From the NCBI GenBank assembly GCA_020723385.1, contig DYIZ01000034.1, forward strand, positions 1-46,295: DNA of 46,295 nucleotides. The letters are read 5' to 3'. This DNA is from Candidatus Aquidulcis sp. (lineage in GTDB: Bacteria > Chloroflexota > Anaerolineae > Anaerolineales > UBA4823). Numbering within the stretch: position 1 is the first letter of the stretch; each line of letters begins with the position of its first letter. Shown here piece by piece: positions 21,265-46,294 of the stretch. Both the position numbers and the translations under genes were made by a program. The notes below the pieces were generated by a model. The model did not search any database. It was not told the origin of the DNA and was given only the letters and a program-made list of their open reading frames with translations.

Positions 21265-24200
21265 ATACCAGATGGGTCTGTGTTGACGACTGGGTTGGCT
21301 GATCCGTAAAGATACAAATTATTCTCAATTCCTGATGGATCTTTTTGAACAAACCTTCCCACCCCCGGCTGGTAGTATCGCGCCCGTAGGTACACCATCC
21401 CCGTCCCATCCGTCCATTCGCCAGTGTACCCGTAGCTGGTCGCACCGTTTCCTGTGTTGTCCAACGTTTCCCCATACGGATTATACGACTTCGCCAGCGT
21501 CACAGTACCATCGGAATCCGCAAGCTGCCGTACAGAGCCAAGCGCGTCACTCAGGTAATACTCCTTCCCGACAATACCGGTCTCGGAAATCCGCCTGCGA
21601 CCATAGAGATACATGTTCTCACCGTCACTCAATACCTGGATCAGGCCGGTGTTCAGATCGAGTGTGTAACGTGTCTCTGTTCCGTTAACGGTTTGTCGCA
21701 ACCGGTCTCCTTCCCCATTATACCCGTAACCGACTGCCAACTGCCCGCTGACAACCGTCAACCGATTGGCATGATCGTAGCTGTAAGCGTTCACGCTGTC
21801 CGAGAGCAGGTTGCCGTTGTCATCCCAACTGTACGTCACGCCATGCCCCGCGCTCACCAGGCGATTGGCGGCGTCATACTGGTACAGGGTCGTATGCCCC
21901 GGATCGCTGGCAGTCAGGCGGTTGCCCATCGAATCGTAAGTATAGTGGAAGTAGAGACCACTGCTGTAGTCCGCCGCTTTCAGACGGTATAGGTGATCGT
22001 AGGTATAGGCGATCGTGGTGGTAGTCTGATGGTCGGATAGTCGGATGGTTGTCAGGTCGGGCAGGTTGAGTTTCGACCAGCCGGGCAGGGTGGGGAGCGC
22101 CGCCAGTGGATCGCGGGCAGCCAGCCGGGTGGAGATGGCCCAATTGGCCGGCGCGCTGACTGTCTCGGCCAGTGGGACAGTCGAGTAAAAGATACCCTTA
22201 CTGCCACCGTCGAAGCCGCCGGTCGCCGCGACGCTGATGGCTGCGGTGGTGCAGCCGGGAATAGCGCAGTGATTCTGGCTGCCGCTCCAATATTGTCCGC
22301 CGCTCTTGTCAGCGCGGAAGCGGTAGTTACCCAACGGCAGGGTGAATGTTGCCTGCCCGTCAGCGTTGGTCGTCTTGTTGTAGCCAGTGTAGGTGGATCC
22401 GTTGAAGGCATACACCGGCAGGCCGGCCTGCGGCGTGTTGTTCGTGTTCAGTATGGTCACGATGACCGGGATCGTCACCGTGACGTTAGCTGCTGTACAG
22501 CCGGGCAGGGTGCAGTGATTTTGTGTGTCGCTCCAGAACTGAGTCCCGTTCTTGTCTGCCCGGAAGCGGTAGCTGCCCTGCGGCAGCGTGAATGTTGCCT
22601 GCCCGCTGACGTTGGTGGTTTTGTAGTAACCGGTGTAGGTTGTCCCATCGAAGGCGTACACCGTCAGCCCGGATTGAGGAGTTCCATCGGTGTCGAGAAC
22701 GGTTACGACCACTGGGACGGTTACGGTTACTGATGCGCTCTCACAGCCAGGGATTGTGCAGTGATTGACTGTTCCACTCCAGAATTGCACGCCATTCTTA
22801 TCAGCGCGGAAACGGTAATCCGCTTGCGGCAGGGTAAACGTGGCCTGCCCGCTGGCGTCGGTGGTTTTGTAGTAGCCAGAGTAAGCCGCCCCGTTGAAGG
22901 CGTAGACTGTCAAACCCGCCGCCGGGTTGCCGTCCGTGTCCAAAACGGTGACAACTACGGGGATTGTGACAGTGACGCTGGCCGAAGCGCAGCCCGGAAT
23001 CGTGCAGTGGTTGCTTGATCCGCTCCAGAATTGCACACCATTCTTGTCTGCCCGGAAGCGATAACTGCCTTGCGGCAGGATGAAGCTGGCCTGCCCGTTG
23101 GCGTCGGTTGTTTTGGTGTAGCCGGTGTAGGTCGCCCCATTGAAGGCATAGACAGACAAACCAGCCGCCGGGCTGCCGTTTGTATCCAACACGGTAACCA
23201 GCACGGAGGCGGTTACCGTGATCGCGGCGCTCGTGCAGCCGGGTATTGTGCAGTGGTTGGCAGCTCCGCTCCAGAACTGCGTGCCAGCCTTGTCGGCGCG
23301 GAAGCGGTACGAGCCTTGCGGCAGCGTGAACGAGACTTGCCCCTCGGCGTTGGTCACGCCGGTGAAGCCGGTGTAGGTTGTCCCATCATAGACATAGACG
23401 CTCAACCCTGGCTGGAGTACGCCGTAATTGTCCACCACGGTGACCGACAGCGCGCCGGTGACGGCGACACTCGTGGTTGTACAGCCGGGGATAGTGCAAT
23501 GGTTACTTGTCCCACTCCAGAACTGCGTGCCATTCTTGTCGGCGCGGAAGCGGTAGCTACCTGTCGGCAGAATGAACGTTGCTTGCCCATTCGCGTCTGT
23601 CGTCTTGTTGTAATTGGTATACGTAGCGCTATCGAAGGCATACACCGACAATCCGGCTTGTGGATTCCCATCCGTATCCAGTACGGTCACGACGACGGGA
23701 ATCGTCACCGTGACGCTGGTTGCTGTGCAACCGGGCAGGGTACAGTGATTCTGCGTGTCGCTCCAGAACTGCGTGCCATTCTTGTCTGTCCGGAAGCGGT
23801 AGTTACCTTGGGGCAAAGTGAATATGGCCTGACCATTGGCGTCGGTGACTTTGTTGTAGTTGGTATAGGTCGAGCCATCGAAGGTGTACACAGCCAGCCC
23901 CGATTGAGGGATCCCATCAGTATCGAGAACGGTCACAACCACCGGGATGGTCACAGTCACTGATGCGCTCTCGCAACCTGGCAGGGTGCAGTGGTTGCTC
24001 GATCCACTCCAGAATTGCGTGCCGTTCTTGTCGACGCGGAACCGATAGTTGCCCTGAGGTAAGGTAAATACTGCCTGCCCGCTGGCGTCGGTGATTTCAT
24101 GGAAACCGGCGTAGGTTTCGCCGTCGAAGGCATACACGGACAATCCACCAGCAGGGTTTCCACCGGTATCGAGCACCACCACAGATATCGGGATCGTCAC

Positions 24201-27200
24201 TGTGATCGCCGCGCCCGCGCAGCCTGGGATCGTGCAGTGATCTGTTATCCCGCTCCAGAATTGTGTGCCATTCCTATCGGCGCGGAAACGATACTCCCCT
24301 TGTAGCAGAGTGAACGATACCTGTCCATTGGCATCCGTCACGCCCTGTTTACCTGTGTACGTGGTACCTGTGAACGCATACACCGCCAGTCCAGCCGCCG
24401 GATTACCATTCGTATCTAGCGCTGTCACCGTGATCGGGTTGGTCACTGTGATGTCCACATGGCCGCATCCAGGAACCATGCAGTGGTTCGCCGCGCCACT
24501 CCAGAACTGCGTCCCGTTCTTGTCAGCGCGGAAGCGATACGCTCCGTCCGGCAAATCGAACGATACCCGCCCTGCAGAATCCGTGACCCCGCTGTAGCCT
24601 GTATAGGATGATTCATTGAAGGCATACACAGTCAGCCCGGCCTTCGGCGCGCCGTATGGGTCGCGCACCAGCGCAACTTGCCCAGTGTCGGGCTGCAATA
24701 CCGTCTCGGTAACCGCCGTCCGGTTGCCCACGGCATCATAGGCGTATTCGAAGCTAGATAGCAGTTCATAAGCTGTAGCGTGTTCGATGCTGGTGACTCG
24801 CCCCGCACCATCGTAAGTATAGGCGGTTGTTACCCCATTGGCGCGTGTTTCCGTTAGCAGTTGCCCGGCCGCATCGTAGGTATAAGTGATGATCAGTGAT
24901 GACAGACTGCCAACAACCGTGAGACGATTGAGCGCATCGAATGTGTATGTGATGACTTCGCCTGTTGGATAGATCAAAGCGGTCCGATTGCCGATAGCAT
25001 TGTAGGTATACCCCACTGTACCTGTGAAGGGATCAGTAATAGTGACCGGCCGACCGACGAGATCGTAATCCCAGCGGGTAATTCCCACCCCATCGGTCAT
25101 CACTGTCCGCCACCCCAGGCCGTTATACGCGAAGCTAACATCGGCGTCGGGGTCAGGATAATCCGTCTCCACCAGCCGCCCTAACTTGTCATAGACAAAG
25201 TACGTGGTAAATCCATTGGCGTCCATCTTGCTGGCCTGTTGGCCTGCGGCATCGTAATTGTATTTCCAGATGTGACTTAACGCATCGGTCTCTGCCGCTA
25301 ACCTCCCCAGCTCATCATACTGATAACTGATGACTGAATACTGCTCACTGATGATGGGCAGTTGGCTGCTGATAACGGCGAGCCGGTTTCCTGAAACATC
25401 GTAAGTGTATTCCGTGCGCACGTTGGCATCGGTGCCGGCGGGGGTGCCCGGGATGCAATTCTCGACAACTGCTGTGAGCCGTCCCACTTCGTCGTATTCG
25501 AAGCACGTCACGACCCCGTTGGCGTCTTTGGCGCTGATTCGCTGGCTTGCCGAATCGTATTCGGTCTCGCTGCGCAGATTTTGGTCGGTGCGCGTCGGAT
25601 CGTACGCAGGCGGGGTGTCATTTTGGACAGCCCAGCCGGTCAGGTTTTCCACAAGCAGCCAGGGGCGGCCCAGCCCATCATAGTAGGTGCGTGTGACGCG
25701 GCCAATGGGATCCACGTTGGCGATGGCCTGCCCGGCGAGATTGTAGATCGTCTCACTGCGCACGTTCTGGTCGGGATGATCGGGGTTGAAAGAGGGCGGC
25801 GTCTCGTTTTGCACATCCCACCCGGTCAGGTTGCGCACAGTCAGCCAGGCGCGCCCCAGCCCGTCGGTGTAGGTGCGCGTGATTCTTCCGAGCGCATCCA
25901 CGCTGGCAATCGCCTGACCGCCTTTGCCATAGATCGTCTCGGTGCGAATGTTCCGATCAGGATAAGCCGGATCGTACGCTGGTGGGGTATCCTGTTGGAC
26001 ATCCTGCCCGGTCAGGTTACGAACCACCACCCAGGAACGGCCCAGCTCGTCGAAATAAGTGCGCGTGACACGGCCAAACGCGTCCACACTGGCTATCGTT
26101 CGTCCGTAACCATCGAAGATTGTCTCCGAGCGGATATTCCGGTCGGGAAAATCCGGGTTGAAGGGGGGCGGCGTCTCATCGGTGATCTCCTGCCCCCGCA
26201 GATTGCGGACAACGAGATACGCCCTTCCAAGGGAATCGTAATACGTGCGGGTCACGCGGCCGCTGTTGTCAATCGAGGCGATTGCCCGCCCATCATCGTT
26301 GTCATAGACCGTCTCATTGTGCAGGTTGCGGTCGGGGTGCGCCGGGTTGTAGTCCGGCGGCGTCTTTTTCTTGATCGCATCCAGGTTCGGCAGCGGCTCG
26401 CCATCCAATCCGAGCACGACCAGGTTTTGCACAGTCAAATACGGGCGGCCATAATCGTCGTAGTAGGTGCGTGTGACTCGCCCTGCCGGATCAATGGTGG
26501 CTATCGCCACGCCAGCTTTATCATATACTGTCTGGCTGGTGAGGTTCTCGTCCACCGTGCGCAGATCGGGCGTTGGCGGCTCATCGGCGGTGATTTCCCA
26601 ACCGGTCAGGTTCTGAACCGTATACTCTCCGCGTCCAAGCGTGTCGAAATAGGTGCGGTTGATGCGGCCTGCTGGATCTACCGTTGCGAAGGCGTTTCCA
26701 TTGGCATCGTAGATTGTGCGGCTGGTGATGTTCTCGTTGGGATAGCTCGATTGATAAATGGGCGGCGATGTCCGGGTGACAGCTTCCTCGACCGGCAGCG
26801 GCTCACCCAAACCGTCGCGCACGACCAAATTTTGCGTCACATATTCCTGGCGGTTGAGAATATCATAATATGTGCGTGTGACGCGTCCACCGGCATCCAC
26901 TGTGGCGATCACATTCCCGTTCTTGTCATAGATTGTGCGCGTGATCATGTTCTGGTCAATCGTGCGCAGGTTGGACGGCGGCGGCTCGTCCTCAGTGATG
27001 CCCCAATTGGTCAGGTTTTGCGCCACATACTCCGGGCGGTTTTGCGCATCGTAATATATGCGCGTGATTCTACCGGTTGTATCAATCGTGGCGATCACCT
27101 TTCCGGCGTCATCATAGACCGTCTGTATCACCAGGTTTTGCGTCGCCGTTCGAAGATGAGTGGGCGGCAGATAGGGATTGTCAATCGCCCAACCGGTCAG

Positions 27201-30200
27201 GTTTTGCACCACCGCCACCGGACGGTTTGTGCGATCGAAGTATGTGCGTGTGATGCGGCCAAATATGTCAATCGTAGCAATCGCATTGCCAGCGATATCA
27301 TAGATGACTGAAGTGACCAGATCGTAACCAACCGCGCCGGTCGGGATATAGTGTTCGGCGTCGCACGGGTCGGTTTGAGGCTTCAATCCATCCCCACTAG
27401 CGTTAGCCACACTGCGGATCGTCCGCCCGGCGGCGTTGTAGCACATCCAGTTAGCGCGCCCCAATGGATCGGTGACGGTTACCAACCGTCCCAGTTCGTC
27501 ATAGAAATAATGCGTGGTCAATCCCAGCGTGTCTGTTACCGCCACCCGCTGCCCGAAGCGATCGTAGCCGTATTGGGTAACGCGGCCTGATGGGTCCCGT
27601 ACAGCTTTGAGCAATCCGGCCGGCTGCGGCCAGTCGGCGACGGAGGTGTAGGTATAAATGGCGCTGGCGCCGAGAGAGTCGGTTATGCGTGTTAGCAGCG
27701 TTCCGCTGTAAGCGTAGGTGGTAGTGTGCCCAAGAGCATCGGTAGACAGGATCAGATTGTCGAGATCGTCATACACCATGCTGGTCTGGTTGCCTTCGGC
27801 GTCGGTGACGTTGAGCAAGTTCGCGCCGTCTTCGCTCCAGGCCAGGCTGGTTGTGTGGTTGTATGCATCGGTGAGAGCGTCAGGCCGGAAATTCCAATCG
27901 TAAGAGCGGCTGCCGGCGCTGATCCCGTCGGTCTGGCGTGATAGCGTATTGCGAATATCGTAGTAATGGGTTTCGGAATTTCCTACCCCGTCAGCGACGG
28001 TCGTCTGGACGGAATTAACGGTCATCCCGCCAGTCACCGCACGAAAATTGCCTGAATCTGTGTAATCCAACGCCACAACGGTTTCGCCCTCGCCGTTGGT
28101 TTGTTCCACAACGCGCCCCTGGCTGTCGTACTCATTGTGTTCAACGATATAACCGCGTGGGTCGCGCACGGTGGCAAGCAGGTGGGGGTGCGCCGGATCG
28201 TATTCGTAAGTCCAGGTTTGCCCAAGAACGTCAACTGCCGAGACCAGATCGCCTGTAGCCGGGCTGTAATCGAAACTGACCTGGCGTTCGGCATGGTCGT
28301 TGACCATGACAATCTGCCCGACCGGGTTGTAGTGCAGTTCGAGGTAACGTACTCCCGTATCATCGCTAACCCGTTCGAGTAAGCCGGCAGAAGTGTACGA
28401 GTAATGCAGAGCATGGCCTTGCGCGTCTGTCCATTGGGAAAGCAGTCCCTGGTCATCGAAGGTGTAGACGTTTTGCCCATCGTCGGTATAAACGTAACCA
28501 TCGCTCTGTTGGTATAAAGTCCCGCCCACGCCCGGATACGGCGTAAACGAGCCATCCAGGTTGGCGTAGAACATGTACAGGTTTGTCGAATGAGTTTTCA
28601 ACCAGACGATTCCGCGTATGCCGAGTACCCCCTCGATTTGTTCAGGGTATTCTGGTATCTGGACACCCGCGGGCGGATGGCCAGGGAGATACAGCCGCGT
28701 ATCGAGGTTGTGTGTCCACCCATAGCCGAGTGTTCCGGTGTAGGTTTCGGTAGCTGTGGAAGCATACCAATGCCGAAAAGCCAGTGTCCCTGCAGATGTG
28801 GGGAAGGACAGGTCTGTTGCCGAGTAGTCCACACCGCCGGTGCGAGTGTTGATTGGGCCGCCATCGCGTACTTGCGTCCCCGGGTACGCTGCGCCACACT
28901 CGCTGGTATCACAACCGTTTTGTACCGATTCGTCTCGAACAGGCGCTCCGGGGCAGCTTCCTGATTCATCAAGAGGCTCGAAATCGTAAGTGTCATCAGC
29001 GATTTGTTCTGCTTCCTCCTGGCTGCGGGCGCACACGTATACCGTTACCGCCTCCATGCCCAGGCCTAACTCGAACCCGGTAGAGACCGCGTAATGGCCG
29101 GGATTGAGATGCGTTGTCCAGATATTGACATCTTGCTCGACCATACCAACCTGCCCGCTTCTCAACGTGGCTGGCACGATGCTCCACCAATAATCGCTCC
29201 AGTCCCAGGCGTTAGTAACTCTGAGTGAACCCAGAAGATATCCATTGAAGCGAATCTCAATATTATGAGGCAGCACGTTTCGGCTGACGCGCAGTTGCAT
29301 GGCCAGATCTGCCGATTTGACCAGTTCAGGCTTGATAAAAGCTGGGGTAAAGATTGGCACGGAGATATCGGGCCGGTTGGTGCAGTACCAGTCGTTGGCT
29401 TGAAAAGCCATACAGACATTCTGGCGCGTGACTGCGTAAATATCCCCGCCGCATTGCAAATTGCTCGATAACGTTTGTCGGGACCCACCGCCAGCGAAAT
29501 CAAGGTCATAAGGGATAGACAGATTGCCCATCCCAAGATCGCCCTCACCGTATGCTGGCAAGGTTTGGATGGTCAATGATTCGCCTGTTTGCAGGTTAGC
29601 GTGATTGACGATCGGCGATATTTGGATGTTAGCCGGCAAGCCGGTGGTCGGATCTATTGCCCTGATTTTCAAATCTGTAATCGGAGAGCCATTGTTAGTC
29701 ACTCGATAAGTGCGAACGCCGGTGACAGGGTTGACATCGATTTCTTCGACGGTGAAATCGCCGCTGAAAACGACGCTCACATGCACCGGGGCTGTGTCAA
29801 TGATAGGCATAGCTTCGCCCTCATCGGCGGTGATGACCGCGGTTAGATCGTACGATTTCAGTTCAGCGTCCTGGGCATGCAAGGCAAGCTGCAGGCTGGC
29901 TTCCTGCCCCGCTTCGAGCACGATGATTTCATCGCTGCTGCCGCTGCCAACGAAGTTCACGACGAGGTCAGGATAGGGGTTTTGAACTATGGCTTTGAGG
30001 GTGTGCGAGATCGTATCCTCATTTCGGACGGTCATCGTGACCACCTGGTTGTAATCCCGATCGATCGCGAAATCATAGGAGCGTTCATCGAATACGATTC
30101 CGCTGCCTACGGTAAAGGTGTAGGCGGGGCTGGCCGCCACGCCACAGGCAGAAGTAGCCTCGGCTTGCCATACGTAAGTCACATCCCGAGTTAGATTTTC

Positions 30201-33200
30201 TACCAACACCGTGTGCGTGCCAGTGATAGATGTCGTATAGATTTGGGTTTGATCTGGCTGCCCGAGTGGGTATAACCTGAGCGATCCTAATGCTTCAGGC
30301 AGGGTTTGCCATCGGAAGAGCACCGACCGGGACCCGCTGGTGATGCCTGCCTGGGGTGAAGAAATCAGAATTTGCGGCTCGTCCACCAGGGATAACTCAC
30401 CTGCCAGGGTTTCACCTTGAATGCTGTAGGTAGAGTGAACGGTAACCGTAAACGGGAGTGTGCCTTCATCCTGGCACCCTGGAGGGGTGATAGTCAAGAC
30501 GATATCCTCAGAGCCACCGGCCGGCAGGCTTACTGTTTCGGGGGTCACTGTAATCCAGGATGCTTCAGGTCCGGCCACCGTAAAGGTCAGAATATCTGGA
30601 AGCCATCCGATGTTTTCCACATGAATTGTGTATTCGGCTGCGCCGCCCATGCTCAGTGTGCTGCTTATCGGCGTCATCGTCGCGACAAAGCCATAACCGA
30701 TAGTAATCCCTTCCAGATAGAGCGTTCCCCGTCCGCCTGGCTCATCGCCTGCTCCGCCGGCAACGTTGTACGTAAGCCGCGGATCGATCTGGTCGGCGTA
30801 AATTGCAATGCGCCCGCCGCCTCCGCTCCCGGCAGAGACTCCTGTCCCTCCGGTAGCCCAGATCGAGCCAGCTCCGGTTACCATCGTGGCTGTGATCCAA
30901 ATACTTCCTCCGGCGCTGCCGCCATGTGCAAAGGCTGTTGCACTGGAGCCGTTGGTGCTTACCAGCCCGCCGCCGGGTATGTCGAGCGTGCTGGTGATAG
31001 CCAGGTACATTGCCCCCCCGCCGTTGCCGGAGGATGTCGAAAAGCCAGCGCTGCCGAGCGTCGTGGGCGTCTCTGGTATGCCATATGCAATGCCCCCGCC
31101 AGTTCCACCGCCCGCACCGCCATGACCCCCGCCGCCTTCGTAGGCTGTGGCTGCGCCAGCGCCGTTATTCTCAGGCGTAAATCCCATCTCGTCTGCTGAC
31201 AGGTGTCCGGCGACGGTAATTTCATTGGCGAACAGCGAGACGCCATTTCCGTTCAAGGGGTTGCCGGCAAGCTCCAAAGTCTGCCCGGCCTCGATCAAGA
31301 TACTGTTGAAAACATAGGCGGCTGGTTCCTGTCTCGCACTCTGTCCTGCGGCGCTCAATCGCACCTGGCTATTCACATCGTCAAACGCGGCAAGGGTTAA
31401 ATCGCTTGCTCCCGCCAGCGTACCGTATACGGTGAGGCGCGTGCCTCGCACGGTAAACTCTGCAGGCAGAGTCAGGGTTGCACCTTCAGCAACGTAAAAG
31501 CCAAATCCTTGCAGCTCAGCCAGAGTGTATTCGAAATTTTGGATGAAATAGAGTTGACCAGTGCCATCACCCTGCATGTTGTCGGCAGTCAGGAGGATAG
31601 AGTCATCCGAATCCATCAGTTCCAGGTTGCCTTGATTGAGCAGCTCGATCTGATCGAATGCCCAAACCGTCGCTTCCGGGTCGGTGATTGCCGCCGGAGG
31701 CCCATCGCGGTCTTGATTATCCACGATCAATCGGTGGACGCCAGCATGTTCGACGTAAATCGTTCCCGCGCCGCCGCTATCGCCATCGGCGCCGCCGGCG
31801 GCTTCCAGGCTTACATCCAATGAGCCGTCGTTGAAGTAGACAGCAATACGCCCGCCCGCGCCGCTGCCGTCAAAATATTGATTGAATCCATTTCCGCCAT
31901 TAGCGTTGATAACCCCCGTGCCGTAGATTGTCTGAGCGATAACCCAAAGGCTGCCGCCTGCCCCGCCGCCACCTTCTATTTCCAATCCATTCGCACTCAA
32001 CAAACCGTCGAGCCGCAGGGTTCCGGTTACCACGATTTTTATGGCCCCCCCGCCTGCGCCGCCCACCTCCAAGTCATTCGATGCCCCGGCGCTGCCTGGC
32101 GTGACAGGTTCCAGCACGGAGCCATAAGCCTGACCGCCACCTGCGCCGCCGCCGAACCCTCCATGCCCACCGCCGCCTGAAAGCGATTCAACATTCGTGC
32201 CTGCCCCAGGGCCGGGATTTGCATGGTTGTACCCCAACCCGTCGGCAGTGATCTTGCCGAGTGGATCAACAGCGATATTTTCAGCCAGAAGTGTGACTCC
32301 CGAGCCAGTGTCCAGGTTGCTTTCAAGCTCCAACCTTTGCGCGGTATATACGGTCACAGTATCAAATCGGTACACTCCCGGTAATTGTCCACTGCTATGG
32401 CCGGTGGCTGCCAGGCGGACGATACTGTTCTGACCGGTCTCATCCGAAATAATCAGATTGTTGATACCATCCAAAGTACCGTAAACGGTCAAACCTTGAC
32501 CTCGGACGGTCACATCCGACGCCATGGAAAGCATACCATCAGCATAGATATACAGGCCGAAGTCAACCAGATCAGTAAAGGATGGAGCTGCAATTGTTCC
32601 GTGGGCGAAGATACGAGCGGTTCGATCACCGACCACTGCATCCAGTTGAAGGGTGTCTTGGGGATCGTGCAACTCAAGATCACCGTTGTGGATCAGGGTG
32701 ATTTTGTCGAAAGGCCAGATGGTAGCAGCCGGATCTGTCAAAATAGCTTGCTTGCCGGGCTGATCGTGGTTGTTGATAATTAGTTCGTTGTAACCGGTCG
32801 ATGTGTTTTCGACATATATTGTTCCTGGGCCACCAAAACGCGTGGCCTGATCGCCCGCGGCAGCAGACCAGGTGCCATAATACGATGTTTCGGCAGTGTA
32901 GAGCGCGACGCGTCCACCGCTGCCGCTGGCGCAATACGATCCGCTGCCACAGCTTTCGCCGCCATTCGCTTGGATGTCACCGTTGCCGATCAATTGATCC
33001 GTTTCTACCCAGATGCTGCCGCCTGCGCCGCTGCTCGATCCTGTACCGCCGTTAGCACGAAGCGACCCGCTCAAATCAAGGATTCCCGCTATTTCGATGA
33101 TAATGGCACCCCCGCCATGGATGGCAGGATCGCCGCTCCCACCCAGCGTTACAGGAGTTCGCGCCAGGCCATAGCCTGCAATACCGCTGCTGCTGTAGCC

Positions 33201-36200
33201 GCCATGCCCGCCATAGCGACTATCCTGGCTTGAGAGTCCCAACCCGCTGACATCGATCTCGCCACCGGTTTCGATGGTCAAGTTCATGGCGCGAAAAGCC
33301 ACGATACCTCCCAAATGACCATCCCAGGGATGAGCGGTGATCTTACCGCCATCTTGAATGATGACATCAGGAAAATGACGGATGTGTTGCACCATAACTT
33401 TGTCGTGCGTACCATCATATGAATTTGCCAAAGGTGCGCAAAGGATCAACTCGTTTGCAGTGACAGTCTCGACGAATGCGGTTTCAAAGGTTCCAATATT
33501 CGCTCCGGACAAGACGGCGATCAGCACTTCCTGCCCTGGCAAGATAACGACAGATTGATCATATGGCAGGTTTATAGATCCCACCGATGCCATCTCAGTG
33601 ATTGCATAACGTGCATCGTCAACTGTGATGGTTTGCCCATTCCCAACGACGAGTTGATCCAGAACGTCAATACTTTCACTGGCTGCCATATCGGGAACGC
33701 CCATCAGGTTTACCGAAAGGGTTTGCAGGGCGCTTGTTCTCCAGGTTGCAGCCACGAGCGCTTGCCCGTTTACTAAAGTCACAGAGACTGGTAAGGTTGC
33801 TGAGGGGTCGGTGCTGGTAATGTTCACGGTCCCGGTAAAACTGGTATCAATATTCCAATTGTCATCAACAGCCTGGATCGTAAAACTGGCCGGCTCGTCA
33901 ATGAACACTTCTTCTGGAGTGCCGGTTTTGCCGGGAGTGGAGCCGGGCGTGGCAGTTTCGCCAGCGCGTAAGATCAACAATTGGTTGGCAACAACAGGGT
34001 TAAACGTCACGGTAATCGAATCAGAAACTGCCATGCCATCCACGTAAGCGCGCACGGTCTTGGAGCCGGAAATGGTAGATGCCAGGCCAGCAGTCACTAT
34101 TCCGTCACTGCCGGTATTGCCAATATAAAGACTCCTTTCATCTGTAACAGGCTCGCCCCCAATCAAATTGCCTGCACCACTCACTTGTATGTAGACAGGA
34201 GCGTTCACAATTGGCATGCCGCTCGAATTTGCAGCGCTCACCATTATTGTGGCAGACATGACGCCATTCGCGCTGAGAGATAGCGGTGCGGCTTCGACTG
34301 TTGACCCGCCCACATCCAGGTAGCTCAGATATTCGACCGGAATCACAACCTTGGAGATAGAAGCAGACTCCCACTCGAGAGATACCCGGGCAGATTTGCG
34401 TGTGATGATCGGATCGTCGTATTCGAAATATTCCAATCGTATATCGTATTTCCTTCCGCCTTCCAATGATATGCTCGCGGTGGCCGTCTTTGGAACGTAG
34501 TAGGCGATGGATTCATCATACTGAACCGGATTGATATTCCAATCGTCAATCAGCAACTGTCCATCGATCCAGAAACGAATGCCATCATCATAAGTCAGGT
34601 AAAAGGTATATAGCTCACTGGCTGGCGCTTCCAGCCGCCCGCTCCAGCGTGTCGAGAAATTAGGTGAGGTAATCTCGGGCGCCGGTGTATATTGACCCCA
34701 ATTGAAATTGACGGTGGAGTCGTAGCGAATCAACTCCGCGGATGGTGTGAGAAACCGATTATTGAAGTATTCTCCATGCAAGCCGGCAATGGTTGGATTC
34801 GTGAATGTGACAGCCACAGTGGCATCCACTAAATATTGGCCGGATTGCACAATGATTTGTTTTGTTTCAGCCAGAATGGAAGATAAAGTGGCGGTCGTTG
34901 AGCCGTCAGGCGCAGTTCGGTTAAGAGATACCCACTCATCATCTCCCACAGGTATACCGTTGACAATATTCTGGCTTCCGCTCACCTGGATTGATACCGG
35001 GCGGCCGGAAATCGGCGTACCCAGCCCATCCGCAAGCCGAACGGTTACGGCGGCGTTTGCCACCCCATCTGCAGCTAGTGAGGCTGGATCCACCTCAATC
35101 GTCGAACCGCTCAGATCAGGGTAGCTCAAACGAATTTCGGGAATCACCTGCCGGGGTGTCGAGGGCGAGTCCCACTCCAACCGGATAACCGCATCCCCCT
35201 CATCGTCAAAATATTCCAGGCGCAGATCATACTTCTGCCCGGCTTCCAAATCAATTGTGGCGCTGTTCCAGGTAGATTCATGTATATTCCAATCGTCTAT
35301 CAGCAACTGATCGTCTAGCCACAGCCGCACACCGTCATTGGAAAGCGTGTAGAGTGTATACGTTTCATTGTATTCGGCCTCCATCTGCCCTGTCCAGCGC
35401 GCCGAGAAGAAATCAATACCCAACTCGCCGGGCAGTGGACTGCGGCCCTGCCAATCGAAGTCCACTACCTGATAATCGTTCGTCGAGCTAACGGGTGCTT
35501 CCAGGGTGGGGTTCGCAAAATACTCGCCGCGTAAGCCCCCGATCGCCTGGCTGACTGATAGGCGCAGTTCACCGCCGCCGCCATCTCCATATTGTACTGC
35601 CTCGATCCAATAGGTCGTCCCTGCCTCGGCAGCCAGGATGATTGACGATTGCTCGCCCAGCCCGTTATCGGCGCAAGCAGTTTGAACCAACTCGCCACGC
35701 TCGCCGGTGAATATAGCCAGCACGGTGTCATAGTTGCTGCCGTAAGTGCTAATTCGCACCATCTGGCTGCTTCCAACTTGGAAGCGGTACCAGGCCGAGT
35801 GGGATTGTTCTGTCGGGTCGGGTGCTCCACAATTGATGGCGGGATCATCGGCTGCTGTGGTCGCATCGAAGGTAGATACTGTGCTCGAAAAGGGGATAGT
35901 CTCGATGGAAATTGCCGCGTCGAGATCATCGTTCGGCGCAGGGGCTTCGCCTTCGCCGCGATCGCGCACAAAGATATCGGTATAACCATTGATATCATTC
36001 ATAACCAGGTTGCTGGCTGCCGATTGGAACACCACATACCGCCCATCCGAGGAGATTACTGGGATCGAGGAATAATCTTCAGCTTCAGCCCCGTTAGCCG
36101 CCAGAGAAACACGAGTGGTTGTTTCCAAAAGCAAATCATAAACGAAAATATCCTCGAAGCCGTTGGTGTCGTCAGGAACCAGGTTGTCGGCTTCGCTGGC

Positions 36201-37361
36201 GAAGACAACGAAGCGCCCGTTAGCGGAAATGGATGGCGCTCCATCTATTTCCGCGCCAGCTTCGATACCGTCTGATGAGATAGATACCCGGGTGGTAGTT
36301 CCGAGAACCTGGTCACGAACAAAGGCATCTGCAACGTTATTGGTGTCGCTGATGACCAGGTTGCTGGCCAACGAGACGAAGGCTATGTAGCGCCCATCGG
36401 CAGAAATGTCTGCCCCGCCAGAATAGTCGTCAGCCTGCGAGCCATCGTTGGCAACCGAGACACGGGTGGTCTCTCCCGTCAGCAGATCGTGAACGAAGAT
36501 GTCGGTATTATCGTTAGTATCCCCGCTCACCAGGGTGTTGGCCTCGGATTCGAAGACAACGTAGCGCCCGCTGGACGAAATTGCCGGAGCAGCAGAAACC
36601 ATGTTCCCTTGAGTTCCTTCAGTCGAGACGGAAACCAGGTTCATTTCGCCGGTTGATCGGTCATAAACGAAAATATCATCGTATTCGTTGGTATCCCCGC
36701 TGACCAGGTTATCAGCTGCCGATTCGAAGGCAATATAGCGCCCGCTGGATGAGATCGAAGGATTGTGTGATGCCCCGTTGGCTGTGCCTTGCCCGCCCAG
36801 GGGAACTGACACCAGGGTGATTTCCCCATTCGGTAAATCCTTCACGTACACGTTGTCGCCCGAAACAAATGCCACGAACCGTCCATCGGGAGTTATATCC
36901 GCCTCGCCAGATGTGCTGTCTGAAATGATGACAGTTTCACTGATCACGAGGCTGCGGACAAAAACGTCATCGTCATAGCCATCGCCAAGCGCCAGGTTAC
37001 TGGCATTGGATGTGAAGGCCACAAAATCTGCATACGCCGATACCACCGGCGCGCTCGACCAATGGTTGGCCTGCTCGCCGCCGGTTGCCACCGAGACCAG
37101 GGTCGTGGGATCGAGGAATGTCTGCTGATGCAGCTCCGTCGAGAGAATGACATCAGCCGACGCCGGCTCCACCACCGCATCCAGCTGTGAAACGCTGCCT
37201 GCTTCCACAGCGCTGGCTTGTTCGGCCGCACTGGCTGTCGAGGTAGAACCTCCCAGGTTCGGCATGAGCATGACCAAAATGACTACTACATTGATTGCCT
37301 TTTCAGAAAAGTATCGGAATGCAGAACGAAGGTGCGTTGGTGAAATGCGATGAGTGTACAA
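20280..37361 (-). CDS. Giant secreted RHS/YD-repeat protein (5693 residues), polymorphic-toxin-like
   Basis: In order: signal helix (about 22-38); seven-bladed TolB/WD-like propeller (about 85-470); pre-peptidase C-terminal-like domain (468-610); PA14 (610-745); invasin-type Ig (750-855); second PA14 (858-1010); second Ig (1015-1120); three long Gly-rich passes of a beta-solenoid-like repeat (about 1240-2225); NEW3/FN3-like domains; DUF6531-type RHS entry (about 2820); YD repeats with nine 'TRTYYD.LGR…VQNLTGW' units; ten 82-residue cysteine repeats (about 4225-5050); a return to YD repeats; the RHS core 'ARYYQPGVGRF…DPSG' (about 5325-5365); then a variable 330-residue tip. RHS shells encapsulate and release C-terminal toxins (established). 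The tip is not recognised. It is read against the neighbouring operons and looks like an acquired cargo gene. Confidence 0.9.
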   Translation of the reverse strand: MYTHRISPTHLRSAFRYFSEKAINVVVILVMLMPNLGGSTSTASAAEQASAVEAGSVSQLDAVVEPASADVILSTELHQQTFLDPTTLVSVATGGEQANHWSSAPVVSAYADFVAFTSNASNLALGDGYDDDVFVRSLVISETVIISDSTSGEADITPDGRFVAFVSGDNVYVKDLPNGEITLVSVPLGGQGTANGASHNPSISSSGRYIAFESAADNLVSGDTNEYDDIFVYDRSTGEMNLVSVSTEGTQGNMVSAAPAISSSGRYVVFESEANTLVSGDTNDNTDIFVHDLLTGETTRVSVANDGSQADDYSGGADISADGRYIAFVSLASNLVISDTNNVADAFVRDQVLGTTTRVSISSDGIEAGAEIDGAPSISANGRFVVFASEADNLVPDDTNGFEDIFVYDLLLETTTRVSLAANGAEAEDYSSIPVISSDGRYVVFQSAASNLVMNDINGYTDIFVRDRGEGEAPAPNDDLDAAISIETIPFSSTVSTFDATTAADDPAINCGAPDPTEQSHSAWYRFQVGSSQMVRISTYGSNYDTVLAIFTGERGELVQTACADNGLGEQSSIILAAEAGTTYWIEAVQYGDGGGGELRLSVSQAIGGLRGEYFANPTLEAPVSSTNDYQVVDFDWQGRSPLPGELGIDFFSARWTGQMEAEYNETYTLYTLSNDGVRLWLDDQLLIDDWNIHESTWNSATIDLEAGQKYDLRLEYFDDEGDAVIRLEWDSPSTPRQVIPEIRLSYPDLSGSTIEVDPASLAADGVANAAVTVRLADGLGTPISGRPVSIQVSGSQNIVNGIPVGDDEWVSLNRTAPDGSTTATLSSILAETKQIIVQSGQYLVDATVAVTFTNPTIAGLHGEYFNNRFLTPSAELIRYDSTVNFNWGQYTPAPEITSPNFSTRWSGRLEAPASELYTFYLTYDDGIRFWIDGQLLIDDWNINPVQYDESIAYYVPKTATASISLEGGRKYDIRLEYFEYDDPIITRKSARVSLEWESASISKVVIPVEYLSYLDVGGSTVEAAPLSLSANGVMSATIMVSAANSSGMPIVNAPVYIQVSGAGNLIGGEPVTDERSLYIGNTGSDGIVTAGLASTISGSKTVRAYVDGMAVSDSITVTFNPVVANQLLILRAGETATPGSTPGKTGTPEEVFIDEPASFTIQAVDDNWNIDTSFTGTVNITSTDPSATLPVSVTLVNGQALVAATWRTSALQTLSVNLMGVPDMAASESIDVLDQLVVGNGQTITVDDARYAITEMASVGSINLPYDQSVVILPGQEVLIAVLSGANIGTFETAFVETVTANELILCAPLANSYDGTHDKVMVQHIRHFPDVIIQDGGKITAHPWDGHLGGIVAFRAMNLTIETGGEIDVSGLGLSSQDSRYGGHGGYSSSGIAGYGLARTPVTLGGSGDPAIHGGGAIIIEIAGILDLSGSLRANGGTGSSSGAGGSIWVETDQLIGNGDIQANGGESCGSGSYCASGSGGRVALYTAETSYYGTWSAAAGDQATRFGGPGTIYVENTSTGYNELIINNHDQPGKQAILTDPAATIWPFDKITLIHNGDLELHDPQDTLQLDAVVGDRTARIFAHGTIAAPSFTDLVDFGLYIYADGMLSMASDVTVRGQGLTVYGTLDGINNLIISDETGQNSIVRLAATGHSSGQLPGVYRFDTVTVYTAQRLELESNLDTGSGVTLLAENIAVDPLGKITADGLGYNHANPGPGAGTNVESLSGGGGHGGFGGGAGGGQAYGSVLEPVTPGSAGASNDLEVGGAGGGAIKIVVTGTLRLDGLLSANGLEIEGGGGAGGSLWVIAQTIYGTGVINANGGNGFNQYFDGSGAGGRIAVYFNDGSLDVSLEAAGGADGDSGGAGTIYVEHAGVHRLIVDNQDRDGPPAAITDPEATVWAFDQIELLNQGNLELMDSDDSILLTADNMQGDGTGQLYFIQNFEYTLAELQGFGFYVAEGATLTLPAEFTVRGTRLTVYGTLAGASDLTLAAFDDVNSQVRLSAAGQSARQEPAAYVFNSILIEAGQTLELAGNPLNGNGVSLFANEITVAGHLSADEMGFTPENNGAGAATAYEGGGGHGGAGGGTGGGIAYGIPETPTTLGSAGFSTSSGNGGGAMYLAITSTLDIPGGGLVSTNGSSATAFAHGGSAGGSIWITATMVTGAGSIWATGGTGVSAGSGGGGRIAIYADQIDPRLTYNVAGGAGDEPGGRGTLYLEGITIGYGFVATMTPISSTLSMGGAAEYTIHVENIGWLPDILTFTVAGPEASWITVTPETVSLPAGGSEDIVLTITPPGCQDEGTLPFTVTVHSTYSIQGETLAGELSLVDEPQILISSPQAGITSGSRSVLFRWQTLPEALGSLRLYPLGQPDQTQIYTTSITGTHTVLVENLTRDVTYVWQAEATSACGVAASPAYTFTVGSGIVFDERSYDFAIDRDYNQVVTMTVRNEDTISHTLKAIVQNPYPDLVVNFVGSGSSDEIIVLEAGQEASLQLALHAQDAELKSYDLTAVITADEGEAMPIIDTAPVHVSVVFSGDFTVEEIDVNPVTGVRTYRVTNNGSPITDLKIRAIDPTTGLPANIQISPIVNHANLQTGESLTIQTLPAYGEGDLGMGNLSIPYDLDFAGGGSRQTLSSNLQCGGDIYAVTRQNVCMAFQANDWYCTNRPDISVPIFTPAFIKPELVKSADLAMQLRVSRNVLPHNIEIRFNGYLLGSLRVTNAWDWSDYWWSIVPATLRSGQVGMVEQDVNIWTTHLNPGHYAVSTGFELGLGMEAVTVYVCARSQEEAEQIADDTYDFEPLDESGSCPGAPVRDESVQNGCDTSECGAAYPGTQVRDGGPINTRTGGVDYSATDLSFPTSAGTLAFRHWYASTATETYTGTLGYGWTHNLDTRLYLPGHPPAGVQIPEYPEQIEGVLGIRGIVWLKTHSTNLYMFYANLDGSFTPYPGVGGTLYQQSDGYVYTDDGQNVYTFDDQGLLSQWTDAQGHALHYSYTSAGLLERVSDDTGVRYLELHYNPVGQIVMVNDHAERQVSFDYSPATGDLVSAVDVLGQTWTYEYDPAHPHLLATVRDPRGYIVEHNEYDSQGRVVEQTNGEGETVVALDYTDSGNFRAVTGGMTVNSVQTTVADGVGNSETHYYDIRNTLSRQTDGISAGSRSYDWNFRPDALTDAYNHTTSLAWSEDGANLLNVTDAEGNQTSMVYDDLDNLILSTDALGHTTTYAYSGTLLTRITDSLGASAIYTYTSVADWPQPAGLLKAVRDPSGRVTQYGYDRFGQRVAVTDTLGLTTHYFYDELGRLVTVTDPLGRANWMCYNAAGRTIRSVANASGDGLKPQTDPCDAEHYIPTGAVGYDLVTSVIYDIAGNAIATIDIFGRITRTYFDRTNRPVAVVQNLTGWAIDNPYLPPTHLRTATQNLVIQTVYDDAGKVIATIDTTGRITRIYYDAQNRPEYVAQNLTNWGITEDEPPPSNLRTIDQNMITRTIYDKNGNVIATVDAGGRVTRTYYDILNRQEYVTQNLVVRDGLGEPLPVEEAVTRTSPPIYQSSYPNENITSRTIYDANGNAFATVDPAGRINRTYFDTLGRGEYTVQNLTGWEITADEPPTPDLRTVDENLTSQTVYDKAGVAIATIDPAGRVTRTYYDDYGRPYLTVQNLVVLGLDGEPLPNLDAIKKKTPPDYNPAHPDRNLHNETVYDNDDGRAIASIDNSGRVTRTYYDSLGRAYLVVRNLRGQEITDETPPPFNPDFPDRNIRSETIFDGYGRTIASVDAFGRVTRTYFDELGRSWVVVRNLTGQDVQQDTPPAYDPAYPDRNIRTETIYGKGGQAIASVDALGRITRTYTDGLGRAWLTVRNLTGWDVQNETPPSFNPDHPDQNVRSETIYNLAGQAIANVDPIGRVTRTYYDGLGRPWLLVENLTGWAVQNDTPPAYDPTRTDQNLRSETEYDSASQRISAKDANGVVTCFEYDEVGRLTAVVENCIPGTPAGTDANVRTEYTYDVSGNRLAVISSQLPIISEQYSVISYQYDELGRLAAETDALSHIWKYNYDAAGQQASKMDANGFTTYFVYDKLGRLVETDYPDPDADVSFAYNGLGWRTVMTDGVGITRWDYDLVGRPVTITDPFTGTVGYTYNAIGNRTALIYPTGEVITYTFDALNRLTVVGSLSSLIITYTYDAAGQLLTETRANGVTTAYTYDGAGRVTSIEHATAYELLSSFEYAYDAVGNRTAVTETVLQPDTGQVALVRDPYGAPKAGLTVYAFNESSYTGYSGVTDSAGRVSFDLPDGAYRFRADKNGTQFWSGAANHCMVPGCGHVDITVTNPITVTALDTNGNPAAGLAVYAFTGTTYTGKQGVTDANGQVSFTLLQGEYRFRADRNGTQFWSGITDHCTIPGCAGAAITVTIPISVVVLDTGGNPAGGLSVYAFDGETYAGFHEITDASGQAVFTLPQGNYRFRVDKNGTQFWSGSSNHCTLPGCESASVTVTIPVVVTVLDTDGIPQSGLAVYTFDGSTYTNYNKVTDANGQAIFTLPQGNYRFRTDKNGTQFWSDTQNHCTLPGCTATSVTVTIPVVVTVLDTDGNPQAGLSVYAFDSATYTNYNKTTDANGQATFILPTGSYRFRADKNGTQFWSGTSNHCTIPGCTTTSVAVTGALSVTVVDNYGVLQPGLSVYVYDGTTYTGFTGVTNAEGQVSFTLPQGSYRFRADKAGTQFWSGAANHCTIPGCTSAAITVTASVLVTVLDTNGSPAAGLSVYAFNGATYTGYTKTTDANGQASFILPQGSYRFRADKNGVQFWSGSSNHCTIPGCASASVTVTIPVVVTVLDTDGNPAAGLTVYAFNGAAYSGYYKTTDASGQATFTLPQADYRFRADKNGVQFWSGTVNHCTIPGCESASVTVTVPVVVTVLDTDGTPQSGLTVYAFDGTTYTGYYKTTNVSGQATFTLPQGSYRFRADKNGTQFWSDTQNHCTLPGCTAANVTVTIPVIVTILNTNNTPQAGLPVYAFNGSTYTGYNKTTNADGQATFTLPLGNYRFRADKSGGQYWSGSQNHCAIPGCTTAAISVAATGGFDGGSKGIFYSTVPLAETVSAPANWAISTRLAARDPLAALPTLPGWSKLNLPDLTTIRLSDHQTTTTIAYTYDHLYRLKAADYSSGLYFHYTYDSMGNRLTASDPGHTTLYQYDAANRLVSAGHGVTYSWDDNGNLLSDSVNAYSYDHANRLTVVSGQLAVGYGYNGEGDRLRQTVNGTETRYTLDLNTGLIQVLSDGENMYLYGRRRISETGIVGKEYYLSDALGSVRQLADSDGTVTLAKSYNPYGETLDNTGNGATSYGYTGEWTDGTGMVYLRARYYQPGVGRFVQKDPSGIENNLYLYGSANPVVNTDPSGMFSPEEIARSFRKPSFSDLLDYIGTYPTDYIGTHEARHPRHPIWGLIAALLDATPGDRLKFHRININLAVIPQLDQVDEVILDYDPNKNEIVMDKYANISYLLDNIAHTLWRDNSPTHYWLEGQSGLKGLYIDGADRIDLPDFRSVILPDGGRLWWIIQKLLRFESRCGLGFNVSTLVDRWGNIYISGQVGLGFGISLPVYSEGYVTSDAYGAIYRGTNSLIADSNTMISSIQYLSFGGDFFIGVGGVGATSTIWWSRENGSAVVLVSVGGGLSASVDLSYTRYTGDTRPELGWNYLIDALLGLDPSIKATFRGDLEQKAASLTGGMP
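22215..24690 (-). repeat. Ten tandem 82-residue repeats with NHCxxPGC motif
   Basis: Ten in-frame units of about 246 bp. Each encodes 'VTVLDT(D/N)G.P..GL.VYAF', 'TDA.GQ..F.LP.G.YRFRADKNG.QFWSG' and 'NHC(T)(I/L)PGC'. The first part resembles carboxypeptidase-regulatory/CnaB-type beta-sandwiches. Two Cys and a His recur in every unit (one unit has 'ITDHC'), suggesting a disulfide or metal site. DNA copies differ mainly at synonymous positions by eye. The block interrupts the YD repeats. Confidence 0.85.
25540..27310 (-). repeat. Nine long YD-repeat units
   Basis: Nine in-frame units of about 64-72 residues within the RHS gene: 'NVRSETIYD..G.AIA.VD..GRVTRTYYD.LGR..L.V.NLTGW'. Two units (the 'LVVRDG' and 'LVVLGL' versions) carry an extra ~10-residue insertion before the proline-rich 'PP.YNP' segment. 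They represent local tandem expansion of the RHS shell. Confidence 0.85.
30690..33650 (-). repeat. Three Gly-rich repeat passes in the RHS protein
   Basis: Three long units, each running from 'AI(L/T)DP…WPFD.I.L…GNLEL' through 'TVRG..LTVYGTL.G…L' to 'GGGGHGG.GGG.G…GGGAI.I…G.L..NG…GGSIW…GGR(I/V)A(V/L)Y'. The spacing suggests stacked beta-solenoid coils in a filamentous extracellular stalk. Confidence 0.75.
35960..37110 (-). repeat. Seven propeller-blade repeats in the RHS N-terminus
   Basis: Seven units of about 45-65 residues: 'S.DGRY(I/V)(A/V)F.S.A.NLV..DTN…DIFV.D…TTRVSV…G'. This is a complete seven-blade TolB/WD40-type propeller, so this part is structurally whole. Confidence 0.85.
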
Positions 37362-43461: not shown

Positions 43462-43914
43462 ATGATACAAAAATTATCCAGAATTTTCTTGTTTATCGCC
43501 CACCTTCTTGGCCTTCCTTTTGGCCGCTCCGAAGAGGAAAAGAAAGATATGGCAGAGTTAGATTCTTTATTCGATAATGCAACTATGACTCTACTGCAAA
43601 AGGGTCGTTTTGGAAAAATCCACTGCGCTGGCGTCCCACTTTGCTATCAAGAACAGCCTTTTGCCATGATTTTGCACATGAAAAGTGGGTGGTTTTGCCA
43701 GAAATGCCCCACTTTCGAAGGCAGCATACCCTTTTTGCAGAGGAGTCAACTATCGAATGGAGGGAAGAGATATTGCGCTATGCTAAATCCTTGCTCAAGG
43801 AAGAACAGGGGGAAAATTGATATGGAGTTGGCGGGGATTTCGAAGCAGAAGAGGAGGAAAACGCAGGAAATCCGGGCCAAAATGGGGTTGACGAAGTTTG
43901 AGGTACCCGGCTGA
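43462..43914 (+). CDS. Hypothetical protein with CxxC, possibly frameshifted
   Basis: 150 residues with GAGGTG before the ATG. An N-terminal hydrophobic stretch (about 5-20), then 'HCAGVPLC' and 'WFCQKC' cysteine pairs. After the CCCC run (43707-43710) another frame gives a more natural helical ending (…TIEWREEILRYAKSLLKEEQGEN) that stops near 43820, while the current frame turns into a low-complexity basic tail. A lost base there is possible. No family is recognised. Confidence 0.45.
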   Translation: MIQKLSRIFLFIAHLLGLPFGRSEEEKKDMAELDSLFDNATMTLLQKGRFGKIHCAGVPLCYQEQPFAMILHMKSGWFCQKCPTFEGSIPFLQRSQLSNGGKRYCAMLNPCSRKNRGKIDMELAGISKQKRRKTQEIRAKMGLTKFEVPG

Positions 43915-44112
43915 TGCGTCTAGAACGAAGCAGAACGAGGAGTTCCAGGCAGCGGAGCTGGGAACGGGGAGAGAAAACGTTCTCCGAGTGAAGCCAAGAC
44001 GGATGGATGGGATGAAAACGGGGGGCTGATCGGGTGTTCAGGCGCGCTGAAGAGTGCTTGGGAGTGGTGGCAGGCTACCAAGCTGATGGAATGGGTAAGC
44101 CGAAGCGTGTCT

Positions 44113-45825
44113 TCAGGTGAGCTGGCAAGCCAGGGTGGCTTCACGTACGAGGCGAGCCAGGGTGGTCAGCGTGTCCAAGACATCCGCCAAGAAGATCAAG
44201 GCTTTGGAGCGGAGCAAACCAAAGACGGGCATACGTTTGAAGCCCCAATCTTCGAAGGTAGCATTGCGACCTTCGACGGCATTGCGGGTGCGGTGGTAGA
44301 GAGCCTTCCAGGTAGGGCTGCCGAAGGGGATATCGCGGACAAGGCGGATAGAAGCGTCGGCGAAGCGTTCGCCGACGCTGATGACTCGGCCATGCAGGTG
44401 CTCATGCGCTTGGTAGGGGCAGTCGGGTGGGGGGTAGGAAACCAAGGGGAGTTGGATGCGAGGGTTCTTTCCATGCAAACAGGCTTTGTCACAGCACCAC
44501 TTGTGGCGTTGACGTTCACGATCAAAGCCGTAAGAGTTCAGGCCATAGCCATATTGGCAAACAGGGCATCCGCAGTCATCGTAGCCTCGAATGATCCATT
44601 GGTCTTTGTCTTGATCGGTCTGATGGCGACGGCGGTCGACGACACGGCGGGCATGTAGCTTGGCATACACAGTGTGGAGGAAGGCCTCATAGCCAAACCC
44701 GGCATCTCCAGCCACAGCCTCCACCTGCAAATCAGGGTAATGGAGTTTGAGTTGCAAGAGCAAGGCGGCACTGGGCACATCTTCATGCCCATTGGCTGGC
44801 TGAACATCATCGAACAAAGTCACGCTGAAGCGACGCTGTGGGTCGGCCAGGCGCAAAGGCAAGCTGCGGTAACCATAACGAGCTTTCCCACCTTCATGAT
44901 CCTTTGCTTCTGAGCGTGTTGAGGCATTGGGATTACCTGAAGGTTGATTGGAGCCAGTGTAAACGATATAGCGGGCGGCCTGGTCGCGTGGGGTTGCATG
45001 CTGACAAACCCGAGCGCAGGCCCGATCATTACACTCGCAACCTTTGCGCTCTTTCGCTTTGGCCGGACACAGCCGAGGATGATCCGGCGTCACCGGCTGA
45101 TAACAGCTTTCGGTAACCGAGATGCAGCGCAGATTGGAAGCGGCATCATGGATCTGACCGTCCGGGCACAACAGCGCTTGTTCCCAAACGGTAGGACTGA
45201 GCACAGGCATTTGGCGCATGATCCCCACGGCTTGCACCAACAGCAGGTTCAACTTCTGCACAGCCACCTGGATCAGGGTTTCCCCTTGCTCAACCGTCAC
45301 GGTCTGGCCTTCAGCGTCAGAATTCTGCCCCAGGGTGGTCAGAAAGTAGCGCACACCCCCTTCAGTGGGATAGACCCCGCGGCGGAAGCCAAAATAAGCA
45401 GCATAGTCGCAATAACGCTCATCCGTCAGATTTTTGAGCATTTGACTGCGTGTCCAGCGATGGGCAATTTGCCAACTCACCAACAGAAAAAAAGAAACCG
45501 GATCAAACGGCTCCCAGCCGCGGCCCGTTTTCCATCCAAGAAGATGCGCCAGAACGGGTCGCAGACCACTGAAATCCACCAGGCGTAGCAGCAGATCAAA
45601 CTCCGGTAAATCTTTCCAGATCATAATCTGTTCAGGATCGGCCAGAGCCGCCTGCCAGGCGTAAACATATTCAGAGCGGTAGCGTTTCTTGGGCGAAGCA
45701 GGCATCTCGGCGGGTGTGGGCCACTTCAAGGGCAAACTTTTCTGTAGCCCCAACAGGTTGCACTGGCTGACAAACAGCCCATCTTGGGCGCGGGTTTGCT
45801 CAGAGGAAAGTTTAGCTACGTCCAC
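44113..45825 (-). CDS. DDE transposase (DUF772/IS1182-like) with cysteine insertion
   Basis: 570 residues from the GTG at 45825. The N-terminal DUF772-like domain is clear ('LRPVLAHLLGWKTGRGWEPFDPVSFFLLVSWQIAHRWTRSQ'). The DDE core has an Asp in 'GDAGFGYEAFL' (D374) and the catalytic Glu in 'RNAVEGRNATFEDWGFKRM' (E518). Between them is a Cys-rich insertion ('CGCPVCQYGYG…CCDKACLHG') that probably binds zinc. The start overlaps the stop of the upstream sigma-like gene by 14 bp, so it is probably translated from the same mRNA. The inverted ends of the element were not identified. Confidence 0.85.
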   Translation of the reverse strand: MDVAKLSSEQTRAQDGLFVSQCNLLGLQKSLPLKWPTPAEMPASPKKRYRSEYVYAWQAALADPEQIMIWKDLPEFDLLLRLVDFSGLRPVLAHLLGWKTGRGWEPFDPVSFFLLVSWQIAHRWTRSQMLKNLTDERYCDYAAYFGFRRGVYPTEGGVRYFLTTLGQNSDAEGQTVTVEQGETLIQVAVQKLNLLLVQAVGIMRQMPVLSPTVWEQALLCPDGQIHDAASNLRCISVTESCYQPVTPDHPRLCPAKAKERKGCECNDRACARVCQHATPRDQAARYIVYTGSNQPSGNPNASTRSEAKDHEGGKARYGYRSLPLRLADPQRRFSVTLFDDVQPANGHEDVPSAALLLQLKLHYPDLQVEAVAGDAGFGYEAFLHTVYAKLHARRVVDRRRHQTDQDKDQWIIRGYDDCGCPVCQYGYGLNSYGFDRERQRHKWCCDKACLHGKNPRIQLPLVSYPPPDCPYQAHEHLHGRVISVGERFADASIRLVRDIPFGSPTWKALYHRTRNAVEGRNATFEDWGFKRMPVFGLLRSKALIFLADVLDTLTTLARLVREATLACQLT

Positions 45826-46294
45826 TTCGCCCGCCTCGCCGCCGCAGCCAGGCCTGTGCCAGGCGATCGGCCAGTTCGTACTGCGCTTGGTTGTGGCGAG
45901 CCAATAAACTGCGCAGTTCCTGGCTGTGCGCCGGTTGTCGCAACCAGGTCATCGCCTGAGTTTCCACTTGCCCAACCCTTTGTCGGCTTACCCCCATCCG
46001 AACGCCTATCTCTGCCTGCGTTTGGGCAATGCCCCCCTCTAATCCATAACGCAGCCCGATCACCTCCGCCTGCTGCCGCGGCAGGCGGTTGACCAACTCC
46101 AGCAGGCTGCAACAGACATCCGCCCACTCCTGCTGCTGCGCAGGATCACCCCCTGCTTCATACGCATACAGTTTCAAGAGCGGCAAGCCAACTTGCTTAC
46201 CCTGTCGCCGCAGATGATCCCTGACGGCGGCCCAAACATACCGTATAATCGCTTTGTAGGCGTAGGTGCTGAACCTGGTTCCCCGCTCACTGTT
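45812..46294 (-). CDS. Sigma-70-like protein, 5' part outside window
   Basis: The frame is open to the right edge, giving 160 visible residues; a TTG at 46186 is in frame but is not needed as a start. The edge shows sigma region 2 ('ERGTRFSTYAYKAIIRYVWAAVRDHLRR', visible residues 3-30) and region 4 helix-turn-helix ('LPRQQAEVIGLRYGLEGGI…TQAEIGVRMGVSRQRVGQVE', about 70-112). A basic 40-residue tail follows. This is the plan of sigma-70 family factors. Its stop overlaps the transposase start by 14 bp, so it seems to be part of the mobile element rather than a housekeeping factor. Confidence 0.85.
   Translation of the reverse strand, partial: NSERGTRFSTYAYKAIIRYVWAAVRDHLRRQGKQVGLPLLKLYAYEAGGDPAQQQEWADVCCSLLELVNRLPRQQAEVIGLRYGLEGGIAQTQAEIGVRMGVSRQRVGQVETQAMTWLRQPAHSQELRSLLARHNQAQYELADRLAQAWLRRRGGRSGRS

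Follow-up and report, generated by a model that had tools for sequence, protein, structure and literature searches.

Why should a gene for a sigma-70-family protein run into the start of a transposase gene, and do the two belong to one mobile element? The question is raised by the end of a 46,295-base stretch of DNA (the window) from a 6.4-Mb assembly. Because the window is one entire contig, the sigma gene is interrupted by the contig end; the left end of the element and the start of the sigma gene lie beyond it, about 300 bp as judged from relatives.

Layout of the locus and its transposase

The following features were located in the window (L numbers denote individual loci compared with it):

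43833..46294, minus strand: the part of the element present on the contig, comprising the right end, laid out as in relatives, the transposase gene and most of the sigma gene
43833..43851, no strand assigned: right terminal inverted repeat, GGGGATTTCGAAGCAGAAG on the plus strand, matching the repeats of relatives such as L070 and L076-L078
43884..43892, minus strand: conserved subterminal motif, GTCAACCCC on the minus strand, about 57 nt from the right end, with equal spacing in L070, L072, L074, L076 and L077
43926..43935, no strand assigned: internal copy of the terminal repeat core, CGAAGCAGAA on the plus strand, at a position shared with the right ends of relatives
44113..45825, minus strand: DDE transposase, 570 aa, GTG start, with the triad D222 (45160-45162), D374 (44704-44706) and E518 (44272-44274)
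45812..45825, minus strand: 14-nt overlap of the sigma gene end and the transposase start, read from the sequence
45834..45837, minus strand: Shine-Dalgarno-like GAGG of the transposase, read within the sigma gene, with GGAGG-like sites at the equivalent place in relatives
45812..46294, minus strand: sigma-70-family gene, incomplete at its 5' end because the contig stops at 46295, with 160 aa visible and a Pfam region 4, aligning with 17 full-length or longer relatives

The preliminary description of this locus had placed the transposase GTG inside the last codons of the sigma-like gene, and the 14-bp overlap it gave was exact. The right end (43833-43958) displays the full layout of relatives, with the repeat core and CAACCC at fixed spacing, and the window's copy was the one full copy of the element found in its own genome. 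A 150-aa frame on the plus strand (43462-43914) enters the right end of the element, from 43833, with its 3' end; it had no match in Pfam and could represent a host gene that the insertion cut short. Elsewhere in the window, a single open frame of 5693 aa on the minus strand (20280-37361) contains RHS repeats, PA14, bacterial Ig-like and invasin D3 domains and many carboxypeptidase-regulatory-like domains, and is predicted to encode a giant surface or secreted RHS-type protein.

The transposase of the window had no match in Pfam, and its three catalytic residues were invariant in 13 aligned members of the family. The best named transposase match was the IS1182 family (NCBIfam NF033551; 9.2e-9, residues 340-541), with 34.7 bits against a cutoff of 270. 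IS1182 elements likewise have a DDE transposase between terminal inverted repeats; however, the score lies far under the cutoff, and the family described here has an additional sigma gene and a longer element. Foldseek alone returned no significant match for the transposase model. Structural alignment of the model with the Tn5 and integrase cores revealed an RNase H fold, with the Tn5 transposase as the best match (VIA-align Z 15.5, rmsd 6.9 over 298 residues). Tn5/IS50 of the IS4 group thus provides the closest solved fold together with a DDE triad, but its transposase shares only about 10% sequence identity with that of the element and, to our knowledge, Tn5 carries no sigma gene.

Element boundaries and distribution of the gene pair

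Element ends were defined by comparing copies within the complete chromosome CP070811.1, one of the Anaerolineae assemblies in which a scan of named genomes revealed further copies. In L070, L072 and L075-L085, a single pair of terminal inverted repeats encloses the two genes, giving elements of 2.7-3.0 kb; the right end of L074 was placed at 5959. The terminal repeats are GGGCTTKCGCAGCRAAT in clade B and GGGGATTCGAAGCAGAA-like in clade A, which includes the window. When target-site duplications were sought, 5-bp direct repeats were found flanking L077 (TTTTA) and L078 (GTTCG) only, the other copies having none. The preliminary description had proposed a mobile element with a sigma factor of its own, and this structure is strongly supported by the recurrence of the pair and by the terminal repeats, now identified in relatives, that enclose both genes. 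In L070 (CP070811.1, 3209-9224), two divergent copies, about 65% identical in DNA sequence, are oppositely oriented and no more than 3 kb apart.

A further motif, CAACCC, is present near both ends of nearly all copies (e.g., 3240 and 5931 in L070, 43884 in the window). At the left end it is found at +32 (or at +22 and +44, or at +32 and +55), and near the right end it is in direct orientation, where the internal repeat core and CAACCC keep a fixed spacing. We considered the motif as the -35 box of an element promoter and dropped this assignment, since clade A lacks a conserved -10-like block 16-18 nt downstream and since the motif recurs at the right end.

To assess how widely the arrangement occurs, we collected 25 distinct loci, nearly all in Anaerolineae genomes, with a sigma-70-family gene immediately upstream of a DDE transposase gene, the transposases being down to about 30% identical. 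The gene order of the window thus recurs in 24 further distinct loci, nearly all overlapping, and the pairing is therefore not due to chance. Nearly all intact pairs join through ATGA (a 4-nt overlap) or through a longer overlap of 11 or 14 nt, and the GGAGG-like site of the relatives' transposases usually lies inside the end of the sigma gene. In the class-wide search, transposase relatives were found in 18 of 396 genomes, and reading of the upstream DNA revealed a sigma gene in every reasonably intact copy with its upstream region present. Sigma homologs (E ≤ 1e-25) were present in 13 of the 396 genomes and, where the downstream DNA was readable, were located before this transposase. The relatives from the phylum-wide search included one belonging to a different family of this phylum, whose upstream gene is a full-length sigma homolog with the same C-terminal motif that overlaps the transposase start; the search with the transposase alignment gave no additional close relatives outside the class beyond those known. 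Single-sequence scans of genome contigs and viral contigs gave no matches, nor did the alignment-based scan of viral contigs or the plasmids and phages. Two loci labeled Proteobacteria and Acidobacteria (L071 and L080) are small contigs little longer than the element, and misbinning is a possible explanation for these labels.

Transposase matches lacking a sigma match were mostly cut by contig ends or decayed. Sigma remnants are retained in L012 and L087, L064 is too decayed for the presence of the gene to be judged, and the gene is absent from L066 and L067, which encode distant transposases. The preliminary description had made its proposal depend on other copies of the transposase also having the sigma-like gene. 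Nearly all do, but the close relative L086 does not, and the association is near-universal rather than strictly universal. In this clade A relative (3836-4314), the left terminal repeat, CAACCC and leader are followed directly by the ATG of the transposase, an arrangement that would result from a precise loss of the sigma gene or from its never having been acquired. The transposase frame of L086 is itself interrupted by the contig end after about 110 codons; the locus shows that a copy of the element, though possibly an inactive one, may lack the sigma gene.

The sigma-like protein and the leader of its gene

The sigma proteins of relatives comprise about 210-260 aa with regions 2 and 4, each region being detected by Pfam in 17 of 18 full-length relatives. 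For the window copy, the preliminary description had called both motifs clear. Region 4 is clear (Pfam Sigma70_r4, 4.9e-11, above the curated cutoff); of region 2 only the end portion is visible, from 2.3-2.4 onward (FSTYAYKAIIRYVW), with a weak match (E 0.15). The ECF sigma model TIGR02937 gave 39.2 bits for this 5'-incomplete copy against a curated cutoff of 42.9, and weak PADLOC matches to MzaA were attributed to the shared sigma domain. The structural model has confident domains (pLDDT 86) and matched sigma chains of RNA polymerase complexes; its pTM of 0.46 leaves the domain arrangement unsure.

Comparison with the genome's own RpoD-like protein showed retention of Q406 (14/17), L412 (17/17), E585 (E or Q, 18/18) and Q589 (15/18), positions that we take to contact the core polymerase or the -35 box in E. 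coli sigma70. Consistent changes were found at W433 and W434, which are lost, and at T440, which is W in 16 of 18; these are presumably -10 and melting positions of E. coli sigma70. E407, which we likewise take to be a core-contact position, is A in 13 of 17. Judged by residue conservation, the combination of kept core and -35 contacts with altered -10 and melting positions would suit a sigma factor with its own -10 preference. The two proteins of the element have diverged together, their distance matrices being correlated (r=0.75, Mantel p ≤ 0.0002, n=20), and both genes are under purifying selection, with dN/dS of 0.14-0.24 for sigma and 0.11-0.22 for the transposase.

The leader of the sigma gene folds into a conserved hairpin in which its Shine-Dalgarno sequence pairs with an upstream arm, at least 3 Shine-Dalgarno bases being paired in all 22 leaders. 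At p ≤ 0.01, 15 of the 22 leaders and 0 of 19 control genes had a duplex that outperformed dinucleotide shuffles (median z of -3.3 and -0.1, respectively), and removal of the 5' arm lowered the folding energy in 22 of 22 leaders, by more than half in most. The arms vary between clades yet remain complementary (GACACCTCCTGT/ACAGGAGGTGTC, GGCGATTCCT/AGGAATCGCC and AGGGCATCTC/GAGGTGCCCT). Clade B has an extra terminator-like hairpin between the left repeat and the leader. In L082, L083 and L084, terminator-like hairpins lie between the left repeat and the sigma leader, in the first 100 nt of each element, with arms that differ between copies and still pair (GCGGCGCACC/GGTGCGCCGC; GCGGGACATC/GAGGTGTCCCGC).

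Promoter-like sequences were found in the same region: TTGAC-N17-GATTCC in three copies, TTG-N16/17-TANGAT in three, ATAAT-like blocks immediately 5' of the hairpin arm in clade A, and TATAAT immediately 3' of the arm in L063. From their positions, a native transcript would probably start in or after the 5' arm. No single promoter motif was common to all clades. The element seems to be shielded from transcription entering from outside and to have the means of producing its own.

Possible roles of the sigma-like protein

These observations can be combined into a model in which the element is a two-gene insertion sequence, the first gene encoding a putative compact sigma factor with regions 2 and 4 and the second a DDE transposase with a predicted Tn5-like fold. 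Transcripts reading through from outside would be poorly translated, with the sigma Shine-Dalgarno folded into the hairpin, and in one clade the upstream terminator-like hairpin would also stop them. A transcript from the element's own promoter, starting inside or just after the 5' arm, would be translated; the sigma protein would then recruit the host RNA polymerase core to that promoter, giving positive feedback, and through the gene overlap the transposase would be made in step with sigma. We give an even chance to the proposal that the sigma protein directs host RNA polymerase to the element promoter and, via coupling, to the transposase. A fuller version, plausible at a somewhat lower level of confidence, is that of a self-governing family: host read-through would be kept out, the element's sigma, recognizing a -10 sequence of its own, would turn on the transposase by positive feedback, and transposition would occur in bursts set by the element and not by the host. 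Points counted against the sigma-driven model are the missing all-clade promoter motif, the sigma-less L086, the prevalence of A at E407, and the CAACCC motifs at both ends, which also suit end-binding.

Such end-binding is the main rival: the sigma-like protein may be a DNA-binding accessory of transposition, its helix-turn-helix recognizing CAACCC at both ends and assembling or regulating the transposase-end complex with no sigma action. The fixed places and direct orientation of the motif, besides the terminal repeats, fit this role, as does co-divergence with the transposase, which would be expected of a physical partner. Region 2, which a sigma factor needs to engage core polymerase and -10 DNA, is however as conserved as region 4; the evidence from the leader relates to expression; and L086 has the left CAACCC but no sigma gene, which leaves the transposase or a host protein as possible users of the motif. 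We regard the accessory role as rather unlikely, at roughly one chance in four. Sigma factors act in trans, and the protein could also be a regulator of host genes or a competitor for core polymerase, a passenger benefiting the element or its host indirectly; this is improbable given the tight overlap and the co-divergence, which point to a role in the element itself, and given the restriction of this sigma to one element family among the 396 class genomes.

A still less probable alternative is that insertion sites are chosen through the sigma-like protein, which would guide the transposase to RNA polymerase or promoters. Only the combination of a polymerase-binding domain with a transposase speaks for it, and the flanks of a dozen copies, compared by eye, had no shared sequence or palindrome at the junction. 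That a host sigma gene was interrupted near its 3' end by an insertion sequence, making the overlap accidental, has next to no probability; it draws on the contig-end cut of the window copy and is refuted by the element boundaries in relatives, whose terminal repeats enclose both genes, and by recurrence of the pair at unrelated sites, with six copies in one complete chromosome (G705, matching CP070811.1). The preliminary description had left open whether the sigma factor serves the element's own promoters or those of the host element. Nothing among the present results points to promoters of the surrounding DNA, and we infer that the sigma protein most likely sends RNA polymerase to the element's own promoters.

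Parts of this arrangement are known already, namely sigma-like genes on large conjugative elements and insertion sequence leaders that bury a ribosome-binding site. Tn916 belongs to the large conjugative elements and has an integrase. Its Orf7 is a sigma-70-family protein encoded by a mobile element (PMC9137128); here, by contrast, sigma is one of only two genes in a 2.8-kb insertion sequence and overlaps the transposase. In ISPpu9, a folded 5' leader burying the ribosome-binding site lowers expression (PMC8450116). This feature is shared with the leader control of the IS10/IS200 type, but in ISPpu9 and these elements the leader controls the transposase gene, whereas in the present family it acts on the sigma gene, to which the transposase is linked by the overlap. 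In a literature search covering mainly openly available papers, no publication was found that describes a sigma factor as a regular constituent of insertion sequences.

The usual view is that insertion sequences rely on transcription by the host and protect themselves against an excess of it. The overlap of a sigma gene with the transposase gene suggests that this element controls its own transcription and does not rely on a promoter adjoining its landing site. If true, sigma as the sole companion of a transposase would represent a new control of transposition in a minimal module of one sigma, one promoter and one transposase; sigma factors would spread as parts of the simplest mobile elements, and the family would be a possible source of compact orthogonal sigma/promoter pairs.
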